Source: Candidatus Thioglobus sp. (lineage in GTDB: Bacteria > Pseudomonadota > Gammaproteobacteria > PS1 > Pseudothioglobaceae). Taken from it: a stretch of DNA of 64,000 nt. A model generated the notes under the pieces. That model had not been told where the DNA came from, searched no databases, and worked only from the letters and a program-made list of their open reading frames with translations. Of this stretch, positions 41,069-45,053 are shown piece after piece. The stretch spans positions 1 through 64,000 of the forward strand of contig JAOJBP010000006.1 in the NCBI GenBank assembly GCA_028228555.1, given 5' to 3'. Every line of letters starts with the position of its first letter. The first letter of the stretch is position 1. Position numbers and translations under genes: made by a program.

Positions 41069-41147
41069 TATAATGTTTTCATACACGCTGATTTGTCCCG
41101 ATTGCTAGCGTTACTACCCAGAGTAGTTAAATTAAGCTAAAGCAGGT
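41069..41147 (+). promoter_or_regulatory. metK promoter -10 and SAM-II-like riboswitch aptamer
   Basis: A -10 TATAAT lies at 41069-41074. Downstream, CGCTGATTTG...CCCGATTGCTAGCG (41086-41110) forms the P1 stem and loop of SAM-II riboswitches: compare CGCUGAUUU and UUGCAAGCG in the known metX aptamer, quoted from memory. An inserted hairpin CTAC/GTAG (41113-41126) follows. AAGCTAAAGCAGG (41134-41146) then matches the 3' pseudoknot strand AGCUAAA...GG. The expected response is SAM binding, pseudoknot closure and metK off. Confidence 0.75.
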
Positions 41148-41160
41148 GTTTTTCTTCATT

Positions 41161-41188
41161 AAAAAACCCTTCTTGATAAGGGTTTTTT
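41161..41188 (+). terminator. metK leader terminator (riboswitch expression platform)
   Basis: AAAAAACCCTT (41161-41171) pairs with AAGGGTTTTTT (41178-41188), an 11-bp stem ending in a T-run only 21 bp before the metK ATG. An alternative pairing of the upstream GGTGTTTTT (41145-41153) with the AAAAAACC arm could act as an antiterminator and would use the aptamer's last G residues. Confidence 0.85.
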
Positions 41189-41209
41189 AATGTTCATATG
41201 GAGAACAAA

Positions 41210-42343
41210 ATGATATTTACTTCTGAATCTGTTTCGGCAGGACATCCCGATAAAGTTTGCGATCAAATTTCTGATGCTATTTTAGATGCAGCACTCACGC
41301 AAGACAAAAATTCACGCGTTGCTGTGGAAACTCTAGTCAAAGATAACCATGTTGTTTTAGCGGGTGAAATCACCACAGGTGCTGACATTGATTACGAAAA
41401 AATCGTACGTGATACAATTATTGGTATTGGCTACGACAAAGAAGAGTATGGTTTTAATGGTCATACTTGTGACCTTATCAATCTGTTAGGCGAACAATCT
41501 CAAGATATCGCCATGGGCGTTGATGAATCATCAGATCATGAGCAAGGTGCTGGTGATCAAGGCTTAATGTTTGGTTATGCTTGTAATGCGACTGACGTTT
41601 ATATGCCGGCGCCAGTGTTATATGCACATCGCTTAGTTGCTAAACAAGCTGAGTTGATGAAAAATGGCCAACTACCTTGGTTACGTCCCGATGCAAAATC
41701 ACAAGTCTCTTGTATTTATAAAGATCATAAAATCGTTGGTATTGATGCGGTAGTTCTATCAACTCAACACGATGCAGATATCTCTCTTGATGATTTACGT
41801 GAAGCAATTTTAGAAGAAGTTATTAAGCCAGTTCTTCCTAGTGAATGGCTAAGTAACTCAACCAAATTTCATATCAATCCAACGGGTAATTTTGTCATTG
41901 GTGGCCCTGTAGGAGATGCAGGTTTAACGGGTCGAAAGATTATTGTTGATACTTACGGCGGCATGGCTCGTCATGGTGGTGGTGCTTTTTCTGGAAAAGA
42001 TCCATCAAAAGTTGACCGCTCTGCTGCTTATGCAACCCGCTATGTTGCTAAAAACATTGTGGCAGCTGGATTAGCTGAACGTTGTGAAGTTCAGGTTTCT
42101 TACGCCATTGGTGTTGCTGAGCCCACTTCAATTAGTGTTGAAACTTTTGGTACAGGTAAAATTTCTAATGATGCTATTGAAACACTCGTTCGAGAACACT
42201 TTGACTTACGCCCTAAAGGTCTAATCGCTATGCTTGACCTTAAGCGTCCTATTTACCAAAAGACAGCAAGTTATGGTCATTTTGGTCGTACGGAAGATGA
42301 TATTACCTGGGAAAAAACTGACCGGACTCACTTGTTGAAATAG
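41210..42343 (+). CDS. metK: S-adenosylmethionine synthetase
   Basis: Makes SAM from methionine and ATP. The start is set at ATG 41210 ([15 protein letters not shown]), because GGAG at 41200-41203 is spaced correctly for it. An upstream in-frame ATG at 41198 would place that site inside the coding region and has only the terminator hairpin before it. The product is 377 aa. [25 protein letters not shown] and [19 protein letters not shown] motifs are intact. Controlled by the SAM-II-like leader; ahcY follows. Confidence 0.96.
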
Positions 42344-42364: not shown

Positions 42365-42448
42365 TATAATAACCAAACTGCCAAGGAGCGTTGCGTTGAA
42401 TTTTTTTTTCAATCAGGCTTGGTGATCTTCATAATCAAACGACGCTCA
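42365..42448 (+). promoter_or_regulatory. ahcY promoter and S-adenosylhomocysteine (SAH) riboswitch
   Basis: The -10 TATAAT is at 42365-42370. The leader then reads CCAAGGAGCGTTGCG (42381-42395), a T-rich hairpin loop, CAGGCTTGG (42414-42422) and AAACGACGCTCA (42437-42448). These match the SAH riboswitch core (GAGGAGCGCUGC, CAGGCUCG, AAACGGCGCUCA, from memory). GAGCGT pairs with ACGCTC, and CCAAG pairs with CTTGG as the pseudoknot. This class normally turns genes on when SAH accumulates. Confidence 0.92.
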
Positions 42449-42475
42449 TTTTTTAAATTTCCTAAAGGAGAAAAA

Positions 42476-43894: not shown

Positions 43895-44069
43895 ATGCCA
43901 TTTTGATTATTTGCCAAATTTATACATAAATAATAAAAAAAACCTAAAAAAGACCATAAAATAGAGAAAATATCTTAAAAAAGACTTATAAATAGCACTT
44001 TTTATCTCTTTTTAGGTGTTTTTTAAGATAAATTATCAGTATTTTCATTTTTTCTTAAATAAATTAATC
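43895..44069 (+). other. AT-rich leader with two interleaved inverted repeats
   Basis: No gene. TATCTTAAAAAA (43971-43982) is exactly complementary to TTTTTTAAGATA (44019-44030). A second pair, CCTAAAAAAGA near 43943-43953 and TCTTTTTAGG near 44006-44016, interleaves with the first. Either could form alone, or both as a pseudoknot. The leader precedes the HIT-superfamily gene; function unknown, and simple AT-richness makes chance pairing easier. Confidence 0.45.
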
Positions 44070-45053
44070 ATGATAGATCCATTATTTACCAGCAACACTC
44101 AATTTGAACAAAATTTCTATCAGAGCTTAGACGCCATGCTCAAGCATAATGAACCTGGCGTATTTATTTTGGTATTGGCTAATGCTTTGGCTGATGAAAA
44201 ACTATGGCGCCAACTCAAGCCAAAGTTATCTGAAAAGTTCGAACAGCTTAAAGCTAAAAAAATAGCAGGATCAGCTGATGATATTGCAGTTTTTGATCAG
44301 CTAAAAAAAATAGATTTTGCCGAGCTTGATATTATTAAATACAAGCAGATTGGTGGGTTTGAATTGCAATACAACCCGCTTCGGGCTTTGCGTCCTCAGC
44401 GAATGTCAAATGCTAAAACCAAAGGTATAAGTGAAGGTTTTAATGAGAGTGGCTTTCACTTTAATAAAGATTTCTTACAAAAAGAGTTGTTTTTTAAAGG
44501 TCAGCTTTTCTCTAAAGACATCTCACTTTTTTATAATAAATTTCCCTTTGCAAAATACCATGGTCTTGTCGTTGTTGAGGCAGATAAAAATCATCCGCAA
44601 CTTCTCACCCTGCAGCTTCATCAATTTGCTTGGATGATGGCAAGTGCTATTGGGCTTAATATTAAAGGTTTTACTTTGGCATACAATTCTTATGGCGCCT
44701 ATGCTTCGGTGAATCATTTTCACCTGCAATGTTTTATTCGAGAAAACCCACTACCCATTGAAAATGATGAAAAATATCCTTTGATCAGCCATTGGTTTAA
44801 TTCAATGGGTGATGCTTGGGAGTTTATTGAAAGTTTGCATCGTGATGAACAACCTTATCATCTAATTTATCGAGATCAAGCTGTTTTATGTGTGGTTCGC
44901 CAGCGTCAGGATGATTATAAACATGAAAGCTGGACATCTGGCTATGCGTGGTATGAAGCATGTGGTGGCATTAACACAGCTACTTTAAATGACTATGATC
45001 ACCTAACAGAAAATGAACTTAAAGCAGAATTACTTAAACTTAAAATAACCTAG
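44070..45053 (+). CDS. HIT-superfamily nucleotide phosphorylase/transferase-like protein
   Basis: Start taken at ATG 44070 (MIDPLFTSN), 327 aa; the upstream 18 codons are low-complexity. Residues 157-170 (NKFPFAKYHGLVVV) and 206-220 (NSYGAYASVNHFHLQ) show the NKFPF...H and HxHxQ pattern (His216, His218, Gln220) of the GalT branch of HIT proteins. The NSxGAxAxxNHxHxQ form resembles plant VTC2 GDP-L-galactose phosphorylase and animal GDPGP1. The substrate is likely a nucleotide sugar or dinucleotide, but this is inference. Stands alone between terminator and glyQ. Confidence 0.72.
   Translation: MIDPLFTSNTQFEQNFYQSLDAMLKHNEPGVFILVLANALADEKLWRQLKPKLSEKFEQLKAKKIAGSADDIAVFDQLKKIDFAELDIIKYKQIGGFELQYNPLRALRPQRMSNAKTKGISEGFNESGFHFNKDFLQKELFFKGQLFSKDISLFYNKFPFAKYHGLVVVEADKNHPQLLTLQLHQFAWMMASAIGLNIKGFTLAYNSYGAYASVNHFHLQCFIRENPLPIENDEKYPLISHWFNSMGDAWEFIESLHRDEQPYHLIYRDQAVLCVVRQRQDDYKHESWTSGYAWYEACGGINTATLNDYDHLTENELKAELLKLKIT

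Follow-up and report, generated by a model that had tools for sequence, protein, structure and literature searches.

The window, a 64,000-nt stretch of a Candidatus Thioglobus sp. contig (JAOJBP010000006.1, positions 1 to 64,000), contains the methionine adenosyltransferase gene metK on its forward strand. The leader of metK comprises a promoter element, an aptamer with an inserted hairpin, an intrinsic terminator and a Shine-Dalgarno sequence, and a second RNA element precedes the downstream gene ahcY (Table 1).

Table 1. Features of the metK leader and its surroundings in the window
Feature	Position	Strand	Description
-10 box TATAAT	41069-41074	+	Predicted transcription start ~41081-41083, at the 5' edge of the aptamer
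Aptamer P1 and loop	41085-41111	+	P1 is 41085-41089 with 41107-41111; nearly invariant in 43 distinct aptamers
Third strand UUU	41092-41094	+	Inside the P1 loop region
P2 5' strand UUGCU	41102-41106	+	
Inserted hairpin P3	41113-41127	+	41113-41117 with 41123-41127
Aptamer 3' strand AAGCTAAAGCAGG (= AAGCUAAAGCAGG)	41134-41146	+	
P2 3' strand	41135-41137, 41139-41140	+	Bulged U41138 in between; then A41141
P2a GG	41145-41146	+	Partners C41098/C41099
Antiterminator 5' strand (aptamer 3' strand and GGUGUUUUU)	41140-41153	+	With 41162-41174, -9.2 kcal/mol
Switching strand S	41147-41154	+	Complementary to the metK Shine-Dalgarno 41200-41207, -7.3 kcal/mol
Intrinsic terminator hairpin	41157-41192	+	Perfect 15 bp, -16.3 kcal/mol; U run 41183-41188
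metK Shine-Dalgarno GGAGAACA	41200-41207	+	From the sequence
metK, methionine adenosyltransferase	41210-42343	+	NCBIfam TIGR01034, 595 bits
SAH riboswitch before ahcY	42377-42454	+	Rfam RF01057, 45.5 bits, above gathering score; ahcY TIGR00936

The start codon of metK is probably ATG 41210, which is the metK start of the family, and not the in-frame ATG 41198, which overlaps the Shine-Dalgarno sequence. The mechanical open reading frame starts at ATG 41198. Most relatives have kept the GGAGAA motif 5' of their start codon. metK lies downstream of the leader in all 66 distinct leaders that are long enough to check, and two leaders are cut by contig ends.

An exact TATAAT is located 4-13 nt upstream of 67 of the 68 leaders, and the hexamer is found in all 68 at no more than one mismatch, compared with ~26 in shuffles. 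This position indicates that the RNA should begin at P1. A scan of the window for two-hexamer sigma-70 promoters, which demands a near-consensus -35 box, returned no site. MetJ was absent from all 40 family genomes searched and was found in the E. coli control.

Aptamer structure of the metK leader

The three SAM-II-like core words and the extra hairpin described in the earlier note were confirmed in the window, where the words occur in order at 41086-41146. The leader stretch as a whole folds better than its shuffled versions (z -2.96). In the model, P1, P2, P2a and P3 are combined into an H-type pseudoknot with an inserted hairpin, and 95.8% of the cells are paired across 43 distinct sequences, compared with 90.7 +/- 0.4% in shuffled and 14-51% in slid alignments. 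P1 and P2 are each paired in 99.5% of the cells and P2a in 92%. P3 is paired in 91.5% of the cells, and every one of its six helix pairs has changed on both sides among relatives. Over the whole structure, both-side changes occur in 64 cells, compared with 23 +/- 7 in shuffles (0/500). The covariation sits in P3, whereas P1 and P2 hardly vary and rest on conservation and analogy.

The GAUUU word (GATTT in DNA) and the 3' word AGCTAAAG/AGCUAAAG are the same in 68 of 68 leaders, and AAGCUAAAG of the aptamer 3' strand is invariant among the 43 distinct aptamers. The topology and the putative SAM contacts resemble those of the SAM-V crystal structure (PMC6061858). The equivalents of the SAM-contacting nucleotides in that structure, as aligned by eye, are the UUU third strand, A18/U19/U20/G21, the bulged U47 and A48-A50, and all of them are invariant.

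Collectively, the metK leader is very likely a SAM-sensing gene-OFF riboswitch with a SAM-II/SAM-V fold, in which P3 accompanies the H-type pseudoknot. The comparative evidence thus supports, as the best reading, the earlier proposal that metK is preceded by a SAM-II-like riboswitch acting through a terminator platform. Conservation, covariation in P3 and between strand S and the Shine-Dalgarno sequence, antiterminator complementarity and the gene context are seen in the sequences; SAM as the ligand, repression as the outcome and the kinetics of switching are predictions.

Terminator, antiterminator and Shine-Dalgarno pairing

The perfect terminator noted earlier was borne out as a 15-bp hairpin. 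A consensus terminator scanner returned none in the window; the U run forms part of the 3' arm of the extended stem. A terminator with a dG of -4 or lower is present in 51 of the 65 leaders examined. The loop region of each of these 51 contains CUU or GUUUU, complementary to AAAG of the aptamer strand, and this loop sequence is needed for pairing with the aptamer and not for termination itself.

The terminator segment AAAAAACC is the pairing partner of GGUGUUUUU (41145-41153). This alternative pairing through the G residues of the pseudoknot had been proposed in the earlier note and is present, but it contains one G.A mismatch and extends into the aptamer. Closure of P2a would use G41145 and G41146 of the antiterminator strand. 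In 14 non-redundant leaders, the antiterminator has a mean energy of -9.7, compared with -5.2 +/- 0.5 for shuffled partners (0/200). No significant covariation was observed between the antiterminator and the terminator arm in the non-redundant leaders (native versus swapped, p ~0.13). The antiterminator is therefore a conserved complementarity and not a covariation. When the full leader was folded, the terminator (-16.3) was favoured over the antiterminator (-9.2), which is not the minimum-energy state at equilibrium. Because equilibrium prefers the terminator, the model needs co-transcriptional kinetics.

The on/off scheme of the note was incomplete, since the strand that carries the alternative pairing also pairs with the Shine-Dalgarno sequence of metK. 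The native set of S:Shine-Dalgarno partners was matched by 1 of 5000 partner permutations in 51 leaders and by 4 of 5000 in 14 non-redundant leaders. In one fixed register, 78.2% of the cells are paired, compared with 73.8 +/- 1.2% in shuffles (1/2000), and both-side changes number 30, compared with 21 +/- 3 (8/2000). Slid registers pair less, at 44-64% compared with 78%. The register test covered 45 distinct pairs, with the window and its nearest relative outside the anchor of the script. Covariation between S and the Shine-Dalgarno sequence has moderate support, as permutation does not fully remove relatedness. The Shine-Dalgarno sequence is, on average, paired at 0.89 when the aptamer strands are blocked, as a proxy for the SAM-bound state, and at 0.70 when the antiterminator is imposed. 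The difference is modest but in the expected direction in 50 of 57 leaders.

Eight of the analysed leaders (L049, L052, L053, L063, L071, L088, L102 and L104) have no plausible terminator. They retain an antiterminator-like pairing (mean -10.2), and Shine-Dalgarno pairing is higher in the bound proxy in all eight. In L052, AAGCUAAAG/CUUUAGCUU is accompanied by UUUUCCUUU, which faces AAAAAGGA. The terminator-less relatives read as a shift to what would be purely translational control.

In the proposed mechanism, transcription would start at the aptamer. At low SAM, the aptamer 3' strand and GGUGUUUUU would pair with the terminator's 5' arm and loop; polymerase would then read through and the Shine-Dalgarno sequence would stay open. 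When SAM is bound, the 3' strand, including GG 41145-41146, would be locked in the pseudoknot, the terminator would form and transcription would stop before metK. In transcripts that pass the terminator, the released strand S would pair with the Shine-Dalgarno sequence and block translation. We consider this added translational layer slightly better than an even bet. A broader reading is evenly balanced in our judgement. It describes the element as a clade-specific intermediate between SAM-II and SAM-V, in which one strand with three partners (pseudoknot, terminator arm and Shine-Dalgarno sequence) would give coherent control of transcription and translation and would become purely translational where the terminator has been lost within the family.

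The main competing explanation is that the same riboswitch acts on transcription only and that the S:Shine-Dalgarno complementarity is a by-product of a pyrimidine-rich S pairing with the A-rich terminator arm. We judge it a serious contender at somewhat under even chances. Permuted partners already reach -7.6 to -8.1 kcal/mol, composition explains most of the paired cells, as the shuffles indicate, and the helix with the Shine-Dalgarno sequence is likewise seen when the full length is folded without constraints. However, a by-product does not readily account for the advantage of native over permuted partners, for the excess of both-side changes in a single register, or for the terminator-less relatives, in which the former terminator arm faces the Shine-Dalgarno sequence.

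Control at both levels by one aptamer has been predicted before, for dual platforms (PMC2258182) and for the Sinorhizobium SAM-II element of metA (PMC9373788). In those systems, the terminator itself encloses the ribosome site, or control of translation is exerted from a distance, whereas in the metK element one strand has the terminator arm and the Shine-Dalgarno sequence as mutually exclusive partners. The region between the terminator and the Shine-Dalgarno sequence contains an extra hairpin (GGACUGCAAUACAAAGCAGUC) in L010 and long inserts in L046, L050 and L093.

Relationship to the SAM-II and SAM-V classes

The search against Rfam SAM models that the earlier note had proposed went against its reading. 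No SAM model qualified at the gathering threshold in the window, and the sole recognisable SAM family was RF01726 (SAM-II long loop), which scored 15.6 bits (cut-off 44). Neither RF00521 nor RF01826 was listed in the window at permissive E-values. Because the window missed the threshold, relatives were examined. No Rfam SAM model reached its gathering score at the metK site in any family member searched; RF00521 gave no match there, and RF01826 (SAM-V) did not list the site for the window or any of 60 family genomes. The best family score for RF01726 was 27.9 bits (E 4.4e-4) in L028, in a full-length alignment with a matching core and one insertion at P3. Rfam probably fails to detect the element because of the P3 hairpin insertion and the short P1 of this clade-specific variant. 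Weak Rfam matches to STnc370, PK-HAV and Phe_leader were attributed to chance; most such matches fall on the terminator hairpin.

The element shares with SAM-II (RF00521, SAM_alpha; RF01726) the core GAUUUG..GAUUGC..GCUAAAGCAG in the same order, with conserved ligand-site nucleotides and a pseudoknot of P1 and P2. It also sits 5' of a methionine/SAM gene with a terminator, and SAM-II elements are mostly transcriptional platforms. It differs from SAM-II in the covarying P3 between P1 and the P2 3' strand, the 5-bp P1, the family-wide score below gathering and metK as the target throughout the family. The absence of P3 separates SAM-II from SAM-V (PMC6061858), and the metK element has P3, with compensatory changes. 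Sequence and full-length alignment would place the element with SAM-II long loop, and architecture with SAM-V. Since it falls below the Rfam cut-offs of both, it is filed in neither class; it is regarded as a SAM-II/SAM-V-fold variant that very probably operates in the same way as these classes. The element bridges the two classes and bears on how they relate, and it indicates that Rfam models miss hairpin-insertion variants.

A true SAM-V riboswitch is an improbable identity for the element. The H-type pseudoknot with P1, P2 and P3, the UUU third strand, the bulged U and the short, 2-bp P2a are common to both (PMC6061858). However, SAM-V is translational, with a Shine-Dalgarno sequence that adjoins the aptamer, whereas that of metK is located 54 nt downstream of P2a with the terminator in between. 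RF01826 misses the metK site yet finds separate elements in two genomes of the same family (44.7 and 43 bits; G013 and G054). These have AUUGUG/CACUAAAAAGG cores, unlike the metK core, which matches SAM-II long loop, and an adjoining Shine-Dalgarno sequence.

We give very little credence to a SAM-II-like fold with a changed ligand, such as SAH or a polyamine. Variant aptamers with altered ligands are known (PMC10853860), and the family carries a distinct subtype; however, the SAM-contact positions are all unchanged, metK is a usual target of SAM riboswitches and a separate SAH riboswitch is found ~1.25 kb downstream. Equally slim are the prospects of a fixed attenuator or protein-bound leader that does not respond to a ligand. 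The terminator alone could act constitutively, but a pseudoknot core invariant across the family and a compensating P3 are unexpected of a plain attenuator.

Distribution of the element and other SAM-cycle RNAs

Of the 59 other family members searched, 53 retain the leader, one of them (G055) over the terminator only; none of 35 genomes sampled elsewhere in the class has it. The exact gapped core pattern was found in 53 records among 84,980 species, with one match per record. All are of SUP05/Thioglobus type or uncultured (gamma)proteobacterial, and the names include Candidatus Thioglobus, Ruthia/Ruthturnera, Vesicomyosocius, Thiodubiliella, Bathymodiolus thiotrophic symbionts and the SUP05 cluster. 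This distribution indicates that the motif in the window is not due to chance. A covariance model built from the 43 distinct aptamers matched 74 of 83 genomes of the order, once each and all in one family, Thioglobaceae/SUP05. The host genome contains one copy of the element.

In 369 genomes of the class, matches of the covariance model outside the family are weak (27-29 bits). Five of them are real SAM-II-like RNAs that share the core: metZ/metY-like genes follow three of these, metN follows one and metK another. One exceeds the RF00521 cut-off (36.4 bits), and a terminator containing GCUUUAG comes after the RNA in the metZ-like and metK cases. P3 is not present in any of the five, and the family variant therefore looks like SAM-II plus a hairpin. 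The metK case, L126 from another gammaproteobacterial family (27.6 bits with model R1), has the same core and a terminator whose GCUUUAG is complementary to CUAAAGC of the aptamer, but it lacks P3. A match in L122 (28.8 bits) was rejected as chance, with two mispaired positions in P1 and no recognisable methionine gene in the next open reading frame.

The host and target, which had seemed less usual for SAM-II in the earlier note, are thus not a stray case but a trait of the whole Thioglobaceae family; SAM-II is already on record in gammaproteobacteria (PMC2258182, PMC2704228), and L126 also precedes metK. No earlier report of a family-wide metK variant with P3 was found in the openly readable articles searched, and an earlier description may exist. 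The near-universal switch at metK fills a regulatory gap in Thioglobaceae/SUP05, which have no detectable MetJ or above-threshold SAM-II. This family of abundant marine sulfur oxidisers, some of which are obligate symbionts of clams and mussels and have reduced genomes, would offer a natural series from termination to translation control.

metK and ahcY have adjacent but separate switches, predicted to sense SAM and SAH, respectively, in the same SAM cycle. The SAH riboswitch occurs in 45 of 60 family genomes, mostly ~1.25 kb from the metK leader, and was undetected in five genomes of genus g2 (G029, G033, G037, G041 and G049) that keep the metK switch. In the window, ahcY is followed by a 345-aa open reading frame (44016-45053), a 327-aa part of which has no NCBIfam or Pfam match.

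The SAM-V elements elsewhere in G013 and G054 are located at L108 612-679, L109 587-655, L110 1987-2052 and L111 1932-1999; two are above the cut-off and the others score 26-37 bits. They precede a homocysteine S-methyltransferase gene, a metY-like gene and a gene for a 169-aa protein without a Pfam or PHROG match. L112 (G020:C31) contains a SAM-V-like RNA just below the cut-off (39.4 bits), and another SAM-V-like RNA lies 0.9 kb beyond it. The first of the two L112 RNAs precedes a gene for an HD-domain phosphohydrolase (PF13328), which also matches the phage family phrog_990.
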